DNA from: Myxococcus eversor
Lineage (GTDB): Bacteria; Myxococcota; Myxococcia; Myxococcales; Myxococcaceae
DNA: 64,000 bases
Assembly: GCF_010894455.1 (NCBI RefSeq)
Contig: NZ_JAAIXY010000024.1
Coordinates: 62,001 to 126,000, forward strand
Direction of reading: 5' to 3'
Both the position numbers and the translations under genes were made by a program. Each line of letters starts with the position of its first letter. The stretch's first letter is position 1. Positions 5,126 through 43,482 of the stretch are shown in pieces. The notes beneath the pieces are model-generated. The model saw nothing but the letters and a program-made list of their open reading frames with translations. It did not search any database and was not told where the DNA came from.

Positions 5126-5413
5126 CTATGTGGGTGGTACCCGCTCCTGCGCTGCCGGCATGTAGTACTTCCCCTCGTGGTGGAAGACGCCCTGTGCGTC
5201 GTCCTTGGGCTGCTGCAACTGCACCCAGCACCCCCCGCGCAGCTCCACCTGGGGCAACTCCGTGGTGCCGCGACAGGGCGGGTGGGCCTGTCCAGCGAGA
5301 GGGCCGTCCGGCATCGGCCGCGCCTTCGGAGCTTCCGCAGCGGCTCGGCACCCGGAGTCCGAGCACGACATGACGGCGATTGCTGCGGCGACGGATAACG
5401 CGAGGCGGGGCAT
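5126..5413 (-). CDS. Small lipoprotein with a kinase-tail-like GGCWV motif
   Basis: 95 residues. A hydrophobic N-terminus ends in a lipobox-like VMSC. The mature part has PPC, then LRGGCWV, then KYYMPA. The same ordered motif appears in the phage protein at 22452-23222 and, from memory, in the extracytoplasmic tails of many myxobacterial Ser/Thr kinases. An exported, disulfide-bearing surface protein is likely; its function is unknown. Confidence 0.55.
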   Translation of the reverse strand: MPRLALSVAAAIAVMSCSDSGCRAAAEAPKARPMPDGPLAGQAHPPCRGTTELPQVELRGGCWVQLQQPKDDAQGVFHHEGKYYMPAAQERVPPT

Positions 5414-21982: not shown

Positions 21983-22011
21983 ACAGTATCGACATGGTAA
22001 TACTGAGTCAA
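21983..22011 (-). promoter_or_regulatory. Main leftward early promoter
   Basis: On the minus strand TTGACT (22011-22006) and TACTGT (21988-21983) are exactly 17 bases apart. The spacer contains one copy of the CGACATGGTAATAC repeat, so a bound repressor would block RNA polymerase. The transcript would start near 21976, 114 bases upstream of the first gene. Confidence 0.55.
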
Positions 22012-22045
22012 GCTTAAGTATTTCTTTAAGCGACGTGGTAATACC
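21990..22045. promoter_or_regulatory. Phage control region: direct repeats flanking a dyad
   Basis: CGACATGGTAATAC (21990-22003) and CGACGTGGTAATAC (22031-22044) are direct repeats 41 bases apart, about four helical turns. Between them GCTTAA / TTAAGC form an inverted repeat at 22012-22031. The second copy contains an extended -10-like TGGTAATAC that could serve the rightward operon. The region is AT-rich against the surroundings and lies between divergent operons. Confidence 0.55.
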
Positions 22046-22101
22046 TTGTCGAAGTGCGTGTGGGTCTTGGCACACCGCCTGCGGGCGAGATAGGAGGCAC
22101 C

Positions 22102-22455
22102 TTGAGGAAGAGAACTGGGACTGGGAGGGCCACTGTGATTCCGGGGAAGCGGTCGCCGAAGCCATCCGGCGCGAAGAAGCGAGTCGTGACGTTCAAGCCG
22201 GACGAGGACGTCGCCGAGTACATCGACGCGATGGTCGCCTCTGAGGACAGTCAGACCGAGGTCATCCAGACATCCATCCGCATCGTCCGGGACTTGGCGG
22301 CGGGGCTTGGAGTTGAGAGATGGGCCGAGTTGGTGAAGCGCGCCACCGTCGGAGCTGTGACGGAAGGCGTCATCGCTGCGGAGCTCTTGGCGCTAGCCCT
22401 CGACGCCGACCGGCTGACGGGGCACGAGCCGCCGAAGAAAGGTTCGAAGAAATGA
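22102..22455 (+). CDS. Ribbon-helix-helix-like regulator (probable phage repressor)
   Basis: 117 residues. The start is TTG at 22102, chosen because a perfect AGGAGG lies 4 bases upstream. After a basic leader, KKRVVTFKPDEDVAEYID gives the beta strand and first helix of a ribbon-helix-helix fold. QTEVIQTSIRIVRDL gives the second helix. Location beside paired operators makes it the best candidate to control the divergent promoters. It is the first gene of a three-gene rightward operon coupled by ATGA overlaps. Confidence 0.6.
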   Translation: MRKRTGTGRATVIPGKRSPKPSGAKKRVVTFKPDEDVAEYIDAMVASEDSQTEVIQTSIRIVRDLAAGLGVERWAELVKRATVGAVTEGVIAAELLALALDADRLTGHEPPKKGSKK

Positions 22456-23222
22456 CGGCGCGCCCCTACCACTTCGGCCCAAGGCTGCGCGGCGCCGCCG
22501 CCAAGGCGCTGGGGCTATTGCACCTGACCTGGGACAAGTGCCACGGCTGGCCAGCGTTGCTGCTGCGCGGCCCGAAGGACAGGCCCCTGCCTGGTGCGGT
22601 GCAAGTCTTGGTGACGGGCTACCCGGACTACGTGGTTGCCGAGCACAGGGCGGGCCGTGCCGATCTCGTCCCTGGGTTTCTCGACATGGCCGCCTCTGCC
22701 TATGAGGCAGCGCTCGATGAGGAGCAGGGCCGTGCCCACCTCGAGTCCGGCAAGCAGGACACCAGGCCCGTCATGAGTATGACGATGGTCCCGTGGCGCT
22801 CGCCTGCGGAGCGCGCGCGCCCATGGCTGCCGCGCGCTTTCGCTGCGGCAACCCTGCTGGCGCTAGTGTGGCCAGCGGCAGTGCAGCACGCCCCCAATAC
22901 TCGGGCCGCCATTTTCATCCCTGCGACAGCGACTGACCCCGTGTGGGCGTCGACGCTTGATGTCTGGAGCGAGAAGCCGATTGGCGAAATACCACGGCGT
23001 TTGGTCCTGCCCGACAAACCACTTAAGGGGCAGGACACCCCGCCGTGCTGGGATGAGGATGCCGTGCGCATCAACAACGGGTGCTGGGTCCCCCTGCGCA
23101 AGACCCCGCCGTGCTCCCGCATGTCGGCCGAGTACAAGGGCGGTTGCTACAAGGCATCGCCAGAGGAAGAGGGCGGCCCCCAGCCGGACCCGGCAGGGAA
23201 CTCCATCCGGAGGACGCGATGA
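22452..23222 (+). CDS. Membrane protein resembling a Ser/Thr-kinase extracytoplasmic tail without kinase domain
   Basis: 256 residues starting at an ATG that overlaps the regulator's stop. Residues 1-115 are cytoplasmic-looking, with no kinase motifs. One transmembrane segment follows (about 122-140, AFAAATLLALVWPAAV), then an exported domain. This ends with TPPCWDEDAVRINNGCWV, PPCSRM and EYKGGCYKA. This Cys motif closely resembles, from memory, the C-terminal sensor tails of myxobacterial Ser/Thr kinases. It may be a phage mimic that competes with a host kinase; that is inference. Confidence 0.5.
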   Translation: MTARPYHFGPRLRGAAAKALGLLHLTWDKCHGWPALLLRGPKDRPLPGAVQVLVTGYPDYVVAEHRAGRADLVPGFLDMAASAYEAALDEEQGRAHLESGKQDTRPVMSMTMVPWRSPAERARPWLPRAFAAATLLALVWPAAVQHAPNTRAAIFIPATATDPVWASTLDVWSEKPIGEIPRRLVLPDKPLKGQDTPPCWDEDAVRINNGCWVPLRKTPPCSRMSAEYKGGCYKASPEEEGGPQPDPAGNSIRRTR

Positions 23223-23401: not shown

Positions 23402-23973
23402 CGAAGCACCTCGGACTTGACAGAGCCCGCGCCCCGGGCTCATCTTGTCCGTGCAGCACCCTCGCTGGGTTTTACGGATAGCCGGCGAGCCACACGACAA
23501 CTTTAGAGTGGAAGTCCGGCCGCTTCGGCATGCCGGTAACCGCTCCGGTGCGCAGACGGTGCTCTATCCGTCATCGTCTGCCTCCGTCTTTTTCGGGTGC
23601 GTCGTGTCCATCGACCTCAGACAGCTCCGTGCCGTGACACTGGATGTTTCAGCGTCTCATTTCGAGCCGGGAGTCTCGTGTTTCGGACGGACGCGCGACC
23701 TAATCTCAGCCAGCCCGAAAGCTCGGAGGGACGCCGAAAACTCGGGTTCCCCGCGTACGGCAAAGGCGGTCAAGTTATTTCGACCGTCACATTTGCTTGC
23801 GGGTCTGGCGATTGGTATTAGGACTGAGTGGTTGCCGCAAGGCCCGTCTGTGTTTCACGTGACGGCCGGGAGTGAGCAACGAGCGACCACAGTCCAAGAC
23901 GGGCGGCCCCCTGTCTTTGCATCGGCACGAATACTGCTAAAGTGTTCAGGCGCTCATGGTCTGGTGGGGGAGT
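23402..23973 (+). other. Long non-coding stretch before the excisionase gene
   Basis: This stretch of 572 bases has lower GC than its surroundings. One frame stays open for 178 codons but has no ribosome site and an unnatural composition, so I do not call it. The stretch holds candidate promoter boxes (TTGCTT at 23791 with TATTAG 17 bases later) and repeated TGTTTC words near 23645, 23680 and 23852. It could hold integrase regulation or a small RNA; nothing firmer can be said. Confidence 0.4.
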
Positions 23974-24270
23974 ATGAGTAACGAGAATCAGGATGCGGGG
24001 CCGGCAAACGAGACGGGGCCGAAGGACGAGCGAAAACGCGCCAAGAGGACGCCTGTCCCTCGAAGTGAACTGCCTGCAGACGTGTGGCTGGTGGAGCACG
24101 TTGCGAAGTTCGCGGGGAAGTCGGATGGGTGGGTGTATTCCCTTGTGGCGGCCGGCGAGATTCCCTTCACCAAGAGGGGTGGTGCTCTCTACTTTGACCC
24201 GGAGACCATTGCCCGCTGGCTCGTGGGTAAACCTGTTGCCGTCACCCCGCCCAAGGGACGAGGCCACTGA
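23974..24270 (+). CDS. Excisionase-like helix-turn-helix protein
   Basis: 98 residues from the ATG at 23974, with GGGGGAG upstream; an in-frame ATG lies 18 bases earlier. A charged tail (1-35) leads to WLVEHVAKFAGKSDGWVYSL and a basic wing ending LYFDPETIARWL. That is the MerR-type winged helix of excisionase (HTH_17) proteins, which bind arm sites and turn integrase toward excision. The stop overlaps the integrase start as TGATG, so both are made together. Confidence 0.75.
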   Translation: MSNENQDAGPANETGPKDERKRAKRTPVPRSELPADVWLVEHVAKFAGKSDGWVYSLVAAGEIPFTKRGGALYFDPETIARWLVGKPVAVTPPKGRGH

Positions 24271-25487
24271 TGGCCTACGTCCGCAAGAAGGCCGGGCGCA
24301 AAGGATTCACCGCGACGATTAAGTCGGCGAGCGGTGAGTTCCGGGAGGTCGCCGTCCCTGGGCGGACCAAGACGGAAGCGCGAAAGAATGCGCGCGACCT
24401 CGAGACCAAGGCATGGCGCGTCCGGCACAACCTCGAGGTCGAACCGGGACTGCTGCTGCTGGTGACGGCCAGCGCTGACTACCTCAAGGCCATCAGGCAT
24501 CACGAAGGCTGGAAGTCCACCGAGTCCCGCTGGCGGCTCCACATCCTGCCCGGGTTGGGTCGCAAGGCTGTCGCGCAGATTCTGCCCACGGACATTGAGG
24601 CGTTCCTTGCGACGAAGCAGGACGAGGGCTACTCCCAGCAGTCGCGCCGCCATCTACGAATGACGCTGTCCGCATTCTACCGGTGGGCCATCAAGGCGGA
24701 GCTTGCGATTCGGAACCCCGTCTCCGAGACGGAGACCATTGCTGTCCCGGTGGCTACGCCAGCAGCGCTCAAGTTCGAGCAGGTCGAGGTGTTGCGCGAC
24801 GCCGCTGGCGTCCAGTGGCTTGCCGACCTTATCTGGGTCGCCGCCCACCTCGGACTTCGATACGCCGAGCTGCGCCAGGTCGAATGGACGCACATCGATT
24901 GGCGCAATCGGCGCATCGCCACCAAGCGCGCCAAGCGCATCGCCGGTCGCGAGCGCCGGACTCCGCCCAGGCCGGCGTCCATCCCGGAGTCGTTGATTCC
25001 CTACCTCCGGGAGATGCACAAGCGGCGGCGCGGCAACTTTCTCTTCTGCTACGAGGACGGCGGCCAGCTGCCGACGAGCAGTCCGGATGCTCGATTCAAG
25101 AGTGCCCTCAAGGCCGCAGGCATCGTCTCTGGCTACCGGCGCATCTGCAGGCGGCAGACGTGCCGGTACGAGGAGAAGTCCAAGGTGGGGCGCAGCGTCG
25201 AGTGCCCCAAGTGCGGCTTCCTCCTGTGGGTGAGCCCCATTCATGGCGGCTACAGCTTCAAAAGCCTCAGGAGTACCCTGATTACGCACATCATCGACAC
25301 GACGGGGAACCCGCGGGCGGCGCAGCTCCAGGCTGACCAGGCCGATATTCGAACGACGCTCAACCACTACCATGCGGCCGACCTTGACGTTCAAGGTGCG
25401 GCCATCGACAAGGCGTTCGCCGGTAGCGGCACTAATACCCCGCCGCGTGCCATGGCGGCTGCCGGGCGCCCGCGTTCGCCCGAATAG
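24270..25487 (+). CDS. int: Tyrosine-type phage integrase with zinc-ribbon insertion
   Basis: 405 residues. Residues 1-50 form the arm-binding start, 65-150 the core-binding (SAM-like) domain and 165-380 the catalytic domain. Arg197 is in LGLRYAEL, box II reads FKSLRST (Arg334), and the nucleophile is probably Tyr367 in LNHYHAAD. The usual His three residues before Arg334 is Lys, and the LGH-type His before the tyrosine is also changed. A four-Cys insertion (Cys293, Cys298, Cys312, Cys315) looks like a zinc ribbon within the catalytic domain. The attachment site lies 140 bases downstream. Confidence 0.88.
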   Translation: MAYVRKKAGRKGFTATIKSASGEFREVAVPGRTKTEARKNARDLETKAWRVRHNLEVEPGLLLLVTASADYLKAIRHHEGWKSTESRWRLHILPGLGRKAVAQILPTDIEAFLATKQDEGYSQQSRRHLRMTLSAFYRWAIKAELAIRNPVSETETIAVPVATPAALKFEQVEVLRDAAGVQWLADLIWVAAHLGLRYAELRQVEWTHIDWRNRRIATKRAKRIAGRERRTPPRPASIPESLIPYLREMHKRRRGNFLFCYEDGGQLPTSSPDARFKSALKAAGIVSGYRRICRRQTCRYEEKSKVGRSVECPKCGFLLWVSPIHGGYSFKSLRSTLITHIIDTTGNPRAAQLQADQADIRTTLNHYHAADLDVQGAAIDKAFAGSGTNTPPRAMAAAGRPRSPE

Positions 25488-41614: not shown

Positions 41615-42618
41615 GAGGCACCTCCCGTCAGCTTGCGGACGACCCGCCGGGTCCACGTGGACGCGATGAGGTTGAGCACGAAGGTGAAGATGAAGAGCTG
41701 CACGCCGATGAAGAACAGGAGCGAGTAGTGGGGGCTGCCCACCACGACTTCGCCCATCTCCGCGGCGATGGTCGCCGACAAGGAGCGCGCCGAATCTCCG
41801 AGGCTCCAGGAGATGACGTCCGCGTTGCCGGAGGCCATGAGGACAATCATCGTCTCGCCGATGGCGCGGCCGAACCCGAGCACACACGCGGCGAGGATGC
41901 CGGGCGCGGCCGCGGGGAGAACCACCTTCCACGCGGTCTCCCAGGGCGTGGCGCCCAGGGCCAGGGACGCCTCGCGGTAGCTGCGTGGCACCGCGGTGAG
42001 CGCGTCTTCCGACACGGTGAAGATGACGGGGACGATGGCGAGCGCCAGTCCCAGGCCCGCCAGCATGGCGTTGAGCGGCCGGTCGAAGCCGAGCGCCTCC
42101 TTCACCACCGTGGACATGACCATGAGGGCGAAGAAGCCCAGGACGACGGAGGGGATGCCCGCGAGCAGTTCGATGACGGGCTTGAGCAGTTCGCGCAGGC
42201 GGCGGGGCGCGAACTCCGCGGCGAACAGCGCGCCGAAGACGCCCAGGGGGACGGCCACCAGCATGGAGACCACCGTCGTCTTCAGCGTGCCGACGAACAG
42301 CGGAATCATGCTGACCTTGGGAATCTTCGACACCGGCTGCCAGCGGAAGGGCGGCCTGCCCGGTGCCACGTCCTGGGCCAGGAACATCTTGGAGAGGCTG
42401 GCCTCGTGGCGGGCCTCCGGCTCCGTGAAGAGCGCGAGGGCCTCCTTCGCCACGAAGATGATGATGAGGATGAGCGCCGCGATGCCGGTGAAGGCCATCA
42501 GGGTGATGAACCCCGCGATGACCTTCTCCCGGAGCTGACGCCGCCGCGCGGCCGGAGACAGCAACGGTGCGACGAGCGGCTGAGTGAGACCCTGCTCCAT
42601 GATGGCCTGTCTATCCAT
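41611..42618 (-). CDS. pstC: Phosphate ABC transporter permease PstC
   Basis: 335 residues with six membrane segments and an extended cytoplasmic N-terminus. The EAA-like loop is [22 protein letters not shown], followed by [19 protein letters not shown], as in PstC. A large periplasmic loop (about residues 65-110) precedes [16 protein letters not shown]. Confidence 0.95.
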
Positions 42619-42636
42619 AGTGGCTCGGGTCCTCTC

Positions 42637-42652
42637 GTGACATTCGTGTGAC
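42637..42652 (-). promoter_or_regulatory. Pho-box-like repeat between pstS and pstC
   Basis: On the minus strand GTCAC-N6-GTCAC gives two half-sites with an 11-base period, the spacing of PhoB boxes. It sits in the 42-base gap between pstS and pstC. It may act as an internal PhoB site for the permease genes. Confidence 0.45.
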
Positions 42653-42660
42653 GGGAGACT

Positions 42661-43482
42661 TCACTTCACCGGGAAGTAGCCGACCTTCGTGACGACGGCC
42701 TGTCCTTCGGGGGACAGCGCGTAGTCGATGAACGTCTTGGCATCCCCGGAGGGCTTGTTGCGCAGGTAGAAGTACAAGTCACGTGACAAGGGGTACTTGC
42801 CCGTCTTGATGTTCTCGGCCGTGGGGGCGATGTCCTCGTTGCCCTTCTTGATCTTCAGCTCCTTGATGCCCTTGGCGTACGCGGCGCCGCCGTAGCCGAT
42901 GCTGTTCTTCTCCTTGGCGACGGCGTTCACCACCGCGGCGGTGCCGGGCAGCGTCTGCGCGGAGGCCGCGTAGTCGTCGCCGTCCAGGACGTGGTCCTTG
43001 ACGAAGACGTAGGTGCCGGAGGAGTTCTCGCGCGAGTAGATGATGATGGGCGCGTCGGGGCCGCCGAGCTGCTTCCAGTTGGTGATGTCCCCCACGTAGA
43101 TGCCCTTGAGCTGCTCCACGGTGAGCGCCGTCACGGGGTTGCCCTCGTTGACGTAGAAGGTGACGCCGTCCTTGGCCACGGGGATTTCCACGCCGGTGGT
43201 GTTGTAGCGGGCGCGCAGCTTCTGCTTCTCCGCGTCCTTGATTTCACGGCTGGACATGGCGATCTCCGTGGTGCCGTTCTGGAGCGCCGCGAGGCCCACG
43301 CCGGAGCCGCCACCGGTGACTTGTACCTTGGTGGCGGGTGTCTTCTTCATGAACTCCTCGGCCCATCGCTGCCCGAGGATGACCATCGTGTCCGAGCCCT
43401 TCACGGTGACGTTGCCCGCATGGGCGGAGAGCGGGAGGGCGAGCAGCAACCCGATGACCAGTGAACCGAAAATTGCCTTCAT
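42661..43482 (-). CDS. pstS: Phosphate-binding protein PstS
   Basis: 273 residues with a clear signal peptide (LVIGLLLALPLSAHA). Mature motifs GSDTMVILGQRWAEEF, GGGSGVGLAAL, SSREIKDAE and RENSSGTY correspond to the phosphate-contact loops of PstS. It is the periplasmic receptor for the PstCAB transporter and is the first gene of the operon after the porin. Confidence 0.95.
   Translation of the reverse strand: MKAIFGSLVIGLLLALPLSAHAGNVTVKGSDTMVILGQRWAEEFMKKTPATKVQVTGGGSGVGLAALQNGTTEIAMSSREIKDAEKQKLRARYNTTGVEIPVAKDGVTFYVNEGNPVTALTVEQLKGIYVGDITNWKQLGGPDAPIIIYSRENSSGTYVFVKDHVLDGDDYAASAQTLPGTAAVVNAVAKEKNSIGYGGAAYAKGIKELKIKKGNEDIAPTAENIKTGKYPLSRDLYFYLRNKPSGDAKTFIDYALSPEGQAVVTKVGYFPVK

Follow-up and report, generated by a model that had tools for sequence, protein, structure and literature searches.

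Directly behind the probable repressor gene of a prophage in Myxococcus eversor lies a gene whose product, here called P0001, ends in an exported cysteine-rich domain, and the question that this locus raises is from what such a protein descends and what it does for the phage. The gene was studied in a 64,000-nucleotide stretch of the genome (contig NZ_JAAIXY010000024.1, positions 62,001 to 126,000), referred to throughout as the window. Sequence comparison identifies P0001 as a prophage member of a family in which an N-terminal domain (N-domain), a membrane segment and a twin Cys-hairpin tail are combined, with a gene that overlaps a repressor-type gene by 4 nt. The new element is that the N-domain likely resembles a decayed kinase N-lobe, which lacks the catalytic lysine and the C-lobe and yet evolves at a dN/dS below 1.

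The reading frame with a membrane segment and an exported Cys domain that the original prediction placed here was recovered on the plus strand as a protein of 256 aa (Table 1). Its architecture comprises the N-domain, one predicted membrane segment and an exported tail with four cysteines. The predicted segment is marginal, being the most hydrophobic 19-residue stretch of P0001 with a mean Kyte-Doolittle value of 1.56 (next separate segment, 0.91), and the distribution of arginine and lysine around it, three in the preceding 15 residues and one after, suggests an N-in/C-out topology. Searches with P0001 gave no Pfam family above the cut-off, not a single PHROG family at E up to 1, and nothing in the PDB by sequence.

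The ATG of the P0001 gene overlaps the stop of the upstream reading frame by 4 nt (ATGA), as expected for translational coupling, and phage Mx8 has the same arrangement; this agrees with the earlier claim that the gene is coupled to a probable repressor. The upstream product looks ribbon-helix-helix-like in sequence and carries a basic KKGSKK end, with no Pfam family above the cut-off and no PHROG below E 0.1. Its hhalign comparison with Mx8 Imm gave an E value of 0.0036 at a probability of 9% over 15 columns, and only the basic KKG end is common to both. To the left, on the opposite strand, are genes for a Sak4-like annealing protein and an exonuclease, and farther left on the plus strand a tail-type protein (PHROG matches in 3 of 10 genes scanned). 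These genes, the excisionase-like and integrase genes to the right and the presence of the region on a 92.8-kb viral contig in IMG/VR (L063/L117) establish that the P0001 gene is part of a prophage. Operator-like sites between the divergent operons match three times in the 64-kb window (at most 2 mismatches), compared with a mean of 0.05 in 100 shuffles, and an inverted copy on the minus strand (22037-22051; 2 mismatches) overlaps the site at 22031. The sites are repeated and partly palindromic. Scans for tRNA genes in the window and for a sigma-70-type promoter were both negative.

Table 1. Features of the P0001 locus and its prophage, in window coordinates
Feature	Position	Strand	Basis or remark
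Second tail-domain gene of the prophage, short lipoprotein-like protein	5126..5413	-	C1 and C2 kept; C3 and C4 lost
Operator-like sites between divergent operons	21990..22051	.	CGACATGGTAATAC at 21990, CGACGTGGTAATACC at 22031
Probable repressor (imm-like) gene	22054..22455	+	Position like imm in Mx8; alternative start 22135
P0001 gene, counterpart of Mx8 p2	22452..23222	+	256 aa; ORF call, family alignment and tree
N-domain, aa 1-99	22452..22748	+	Predicted cytoplasmic; kinase N-lobe-like, no VAIK lysine
Membrane segment, aa 126-144 (prediction)	22827..22883	+	Kyte-Doolittle
Exported twin Cys-hairpin tail (C199, C211, C221, C232)	23001..23186	+	Profile match; two hairpins in model
Next ORF, about 60 aa	23219..23401	+	4-nt overlap with P0001 gene (ATGA, 23219-23222); sequence
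HTH_17/excisionase-like gene	23956..24270	+	Pfam and PHROG scans
Tyrosine integrase gene of the prophage	24270..25487	+	Pfam and PHROG scans

The original prediction likened the Cys tail to the tails of myxobacterial kinases, and profile comparison with such kinases did find a homologous tail domain. An alignment of 23 kinase-less tail proteins (A1) matched the tail of a Ser/Thr kinase (L034) with an hhalign probability of 99.2 and an E value of 2e-19 over 66 columns, and Pfam found Pkinase in all eight of the aligned tail kinases. The P0001 tail and the C-terminus of genuine Ser/Thr kinases are thus homologous domains, with a best identity of 44% to any kinase tail. In these kinases (for example L034, and L076 of Hyalangium versicolor) a hydrophobic segment precedes the tail as in P0001, but the kinase domain is complete, whereas P0001 has none. 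Of 145 genomes in the order, 46 contain relatives of P0001, some of which are full Ser/Thr kinases ending in the same tail domain. The four cysteines are present in 108 of 110 distinct tails, including that of the window; one of the two exceptions is a cut-short sequence and the other is the second tail protein of this prophage. The two halves of the tail represent a tandem duplication of one Cys hairpin (E 4.7e-10; score 30.3 compared with a maximum of 14.2 in 100 shuffles), two hairpins appear in both AlphaFold models (P0001 and an Archangium relative), and we infer disulfides C1-C2 and C3-C4. A generic short disulfide pattern was considered and rejected, as the tail profile was confined within the phylum to one family (f1), all of the 54 matched genomes among 195 belonging to it (E <= 0.001; at most 31 candidates scored per genome). 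One genome of another family (f2) had a whole-protein match at E 8.5e-4 and was absent from the tail-profile matches.

The absence of a kinase domain, also part of the original prediction, stands for the catalytic domain, but the N-domain probably derives from a kinase N-lobe. Pkinase (PF00069) matched neither P0001 nor any of the 23 members of A1, and an overlooked catalytic kinase is rejected on these grounds; HRD and DFG motifs are absent from P0001, and no room for a C-lobe exists between the N-domain and the membrane segment. Read by eye, the N-domain is kinase N-lobe-like (GPY..G.R......LGRVYEA...TG.PALL....PPYLALEVE), and in the predicted model strands come first and helices after. A profile of 56 N-domains aligned with one of 51 kinase domains at a score of 33.5 (E 8.8e-5) over 97 columns, an alignment that starts in the first strand and runs into the helix that follows the fifth. 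Restricted to match columns, the score was 35.1 over 37 columns around the glycine loop, compared with maxima of 23.9 in 300 column shuffles and 31.6 in 300 block shuffles and with 12.8 for the reversed profile. When the set was split, the 19 phage N-domains scored 30.2 against the kinases and the 37 chromosomal N-domains 28.3; the one top-scoring block shuffle of the joint set exceeds both values. The comparison with tail kinases alone was weak (17.7 and 22.9), compared with 35.3 for 31 tail-less kinases.

When 17 neighbor families were scored against the N-domain profile, the kinase family came first (20.4; next family, 14.6). Among 281 single neighbor genes, the top two matches (21.8 and 21.7) were kinases of one family from two species, confirmed by Pfam and aligned at their N-lobe; the third (21.0), a kinase aligned outside its own N-lobe, lends no support to the likeness, and the fourth, an unrelated gene, scored 19.8. 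None of the 56 N-domains has a lysine in the aligned beta-3 columns 53-56, where the VAIK lysine would fall in the register given by the profile alignment. Both structural models (P0001 and the Archangium relative) were weak, with mean pLDDT values of 61 and 63, and Foldseek returned no match at E <= 0.001 for either, an absence from which we draw no conclusion. The model of the Archangium relative has five strands and a helix, and protein kinases, which are very common in the PDB, made up 35 of the 50 listed VIA-align rows with Z up to 3.4, under two unrelated rows (4.0 and 4.4). For P0001's own model other folds were preferred (Z about 4). Over both models Z reached at most 4.4, tied with unrelated folds.

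On balance, descent of the N-domain from a kinase N-lobe appears likely from the profile comparisons but is unproven, a grading held down by the split-set scores. The domain would then likely be a kinase N-lobe minus ATP anchoring and C-lobe, and P0001 a non-catalytic relative of the receptor kinases. Bare Nei-Gojobori dN/dS ratios, some from pairs with a shared member, were 0.14-0.29 for the whole gene and 0.12-0.23 for the N-domain in six phage pairs. The pair formed by the window and genome G101 was less constrained (0.50 for the gene, 0.34 for the N-domain and 0.78 for the tail). The N-domain values of 0.12-0.34 indicate that this domain is probably functional.

The closest known counterparts are encoded by phages. 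Mx8 p2 (orf 2; AAK94337.1 / AAC48897.1), Mx4 p02 and Mx9 p38 are family members with a homologous N-domain and tail arranged around a membrane segment as in P0001, to which p2 is 33% identical in alignment A1. All three occupy the imm position with the integrase downstream, and the 4-nt overlap with the imm-type gene is seen in Mx8 and Mx4; in Mx9 one gene lies between p38 and p36, the latter annotated 'immunity protein'. Mx8 p2 directly follows a gene annotated 'imm, necessary for superinfection immunity', whose product is annotated as the primary repressor. The three relatives are annotated as unknown (p2), uridylyltransferase (p02) and hypothetical (p38), and the consulted portions of the literature searched, including PMC6070905, PMC10281127, PMC2887360 and PMC3952083, describe no function for p2. 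The conserved gene that immediately follows the repressor gene of Mx8, a classical transducing phage, encodes an exported domain shared with myxobacterial kinases and probably retains a decayed kinase N-lobe, so that a role for p2 can now be put to the test. Should p2 act in phage exclusion or in the tuning of lysogeny, its assay would also offer an entry point to the binding partners of the kinase tails.

The imm group has 12 members. The exact 4-nt overlap with an imm-like gene is present in seven (the window, Mx8, Mx4, L039, L042, L043 and L045), and four others (L041, L044, L049 and L069) begin within about 75 nt after such a gene. A KKG-type basic end was found in 10 of the 11 upstream proteins read, and Pfam placed RHH_1 just under its cut-off in one of ten. 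An integrase gene was recognized downstream in the window and in all seven imm-group relatives scanned by Pfam, and is annotated in Mx8 and Mx9; no integrase was recognized within the 9 kb read at L039, and of eight loci scanned L047, outside the imm group, was negative for a neighboring integrase. Seven prophage-type loci that were read (L046, L047, L048, L050, L064, L065 and L116) have no imm-like partner. Further copies occur near antirepressor genes: in Mx4 at 42212-42895, inside annotated p71 and beside the putative antirepressor p72; in Mx9 as p06, about 1.3 kb from antirepressor p11, with another copy at p94; and in Mx8 as p60, which lacks the N-domain and lies in a minus-strand region about 1.1 kb from the potential antirepressor p63. 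A second copy in G101 is near a KilA-N gene. In a tree of 60 rows, with group labels assigned from the gene contexts read, one branch (77/89) has the 36 chromosomal copies together on the same side, and 19 phage-type rows form a well-supported branch (99/97) that contains all 12 imm copies. The remaining 5 rows, of mixed or unknown context and including L064 of a viral contig, lie outside both groups. The imm copies require 3 changes on this tree, a value reached in 0 of 500 label shuffles.

Chromosomal relatives show a wider range of architectures. Distinct sequences, taken from a chosen sample of loci and not a census, comprised 56 with N-domain and tail, 20 with kinase and tail, 18 with the tail alone and 1 with the N-domain alone; laxer limits revealed a diverged N-domain in some of the 18 (L023 and L160, there as L193 and L192). 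Judging by frame lengths among the matches listed, genera g8 and g9 and part of g1 appear to have mostly kinase forms, and g3 (Archangium) and g7 mostly kinase-less ones. Ten genomes (G043-G048 and G073-G076) have from at least 13 to at least 42 tail matches each, lower bounds from 42 or 31 candidates scored per genome, largely in kinase-less frames of 250-300 aa. The copies read in these genomes are found among ordinary genes, some in close pairs (L057 and L058). The Archangium-type proteins (for example L078 of Archangium lansinium) share the two-domain architecture of P0001 without a kinase, but differ from it in their many copies per genome, in their separate tree group and in having no imm-like partner in the copies read; ten chromosomal copies read at eight loci were without one. 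They indicate that some myxobacterial genomes encode a large group of membrane proteins that are related to kinases but non-catalytic. In the kinase-rich genomes G081 (L164) and G077 (L159 and L165), the kinase domain of tail proteins is missing or represented by a C-lobe piece only, the latter in L159, which is counted among the 20 kinase and tail sequences; these three are probable cases of natural decay of tail kinases.

We consider the best explanation to be that P0001 is a membrane protein of the lysogeny operon that serves superinfection exclusion and is built from parts of the myxobacterial receptor-kinase family, with a probability of about 0.4 since the argument is one from position only. 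Exclusion is proposed because P0001 is a predicted membrane protein encoded in the lysogeny region, in the interval between a repressor-type gene and the integrase, and because family copies lie near antirepressors in Mx4 and Mx9. P0001 would be made in the lysogen and reside in the inner membrane with its tail in the periplasm, where it would exclude related superinfecting phages at the DNA-entry step and so protect the lysogen, while the N-domain would anchor it or couple it to a cytoplasmic partner. In phage P22, sieA lies beside the antirepressor gene in immI. The positions of the P0001 family recall, by analogy, both this address and that of ltp next to int. In the parts of the TP-J34 literature consulted, the superinfection exclusion gene ltp adjoins int in the lysogeny module and is transcribed in the prophage, and its product acts on DNA injection from the membrane (PMC3952083). 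A membrane protein encoded in the lysogeny module is what would be expected of an exclusion protein, and P0001, as predicted, resembles Ltp and P22 SieA in location and position, but no likeness in sequence to these or any known exclusion protein was found among the PHROGs (0 families at E up to 1). We know of no counterpart of the kinase-type tail or N-domain in Ltp-type proteins or SieA.

Several findings count against exclusion. The N-domain is conserved, and simple exclusion would not need it. The tens of chromosomal copies per genome, with no imm-like partner in those read, suggest a general host role of the family. The seven prophage-type loci without an imm-like partner, the less constrained G101 pair, the weak models and the putative nature of the repressor weigh on the same side.

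A sensor function is rather unlikely as an alternative to exclusion. The tail would read the envelope or developmental signal of the tail kinases and the N-lobe-like domain would relay it to the repressor or antirepressor, coupling lysogeny to the state of the host. The sharing of the tail with kinases, the overlap with the imm-like gene, the further Mx4 copy adjoining an antirepressor gene and dN/dS below 1 for N-domain and tail alike all fit such a role. However, a link from N-domain to repressor finds no support, Mx8 p60 consists of membrane segment and tail only, the second tail protein of the window likewise has no N-domain, and no tail kinase was found in the present host. A fuller version, in which the phage took over the receptor-kinase architecture as an N-lobe-only pseudokinase with a periplasmic sensor, tuned to the extracytoplasmic signal that host kinases read, and the repressor/antirepressor switch follows host physiology, would amount to a prophage eavesdropping on host kinase signaling; we regard it as unlikely.

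The extensive multiplication of this architecture in the chromosomes of Archangium-type genomes would also be consistent with a host-derived membrane gene carried as lysogenic-conversion cargo, unrelated to phage infection and acting, for example, in envelope stress or kin interactions. Most phage copies form a group of their own, however, and the imm group occupies a fixed place beside the imm-like gene, so we consider this doubtful.

The original prediction suggested that P0001 might be a decoy that occupies or blocks a host signaling receptor. Its tail would capture what host tail kinases bind, be it ligand or partner, and silence these kinases in lysogens in a dominant-negative manner, which is consistent with the same tail domain being present without catalysis. 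In the host genome (G000), Pkinase was matched 125 times at E <= 1e-10, with some frames counted as two halves, but the only three tail matches, whose frames measure 301, 100 and 131 aa (150 of 392 and 150 of 403 candidates scored), included no kinase. Two host profile matches were discarded by eye, L084 as a spurious-looking frame and L085 as no kinase. In G101, another genome with an imm-linked copy, the tail frames are 261, 405, 298 and 143 aa long, and the 405-aa frame when read was not a kinase; in neither genome did a kinase-sized tail frame prove to be a kinase. In favor of a decoy, the five kinase-sized tail frames read from five genomes of the genus (G103, G106, G107, G118 and G119) all represent one conserved kinase of about 490 aa, with Pkinase confirmed in both of the two copies scanned. 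Against it, the prophage tails are not especially near those of kinases (median nearest identity 0.45, compared with 0.50 to chromosomal N-domain proteins), and with the tail no closer to kinase tails than to others, nothing in the sequence comparison points to mimicry of one particular host kinase. Decoy action is therefore possible in some hosts, where a shared ligand could be its target, but not favored here, and we judge it less probable still than cargo. A toxin-antitoxin-like pair, in which the upstream ribbon-helix-helix-like protein controls or neutralizes a toxic membrane protein, would fit the near match to RHH_1 and the gene order and short overlap that are similar to those of type II pairs, but is highly improbable given that the ten chromosomal copies read have no such partner and that Mx8 Imm is annotated as a primary repressor needed for superinfection immunity.

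The second tail protein of the prophage is comparable to Mx8 p60, and Pfam matched an antirepressor in none of seven genes near it (six around and one beyond). Its joint loss of C3 and C4 is what would be expected if the disulfides are C1-C2 and C3-C4. Mx8 p60 itself (L073, 2765-3094), annotated 'similar to Mx8 p2', has a membrane segment and tail of the P0001 kind that are close to those of the second Mx4 copy (L167), and looks like a natural N-domain deletion. Nothing seen here supports the GenBank annotation of Mx4 p02 (L036, 343-1125) as a uridylyltransferase. One sequence titled Comamonas sp. KCTC 72670 (L074, BNCN01000005.1) carries a Myxococcus-type prophage and is probably mislabeled.
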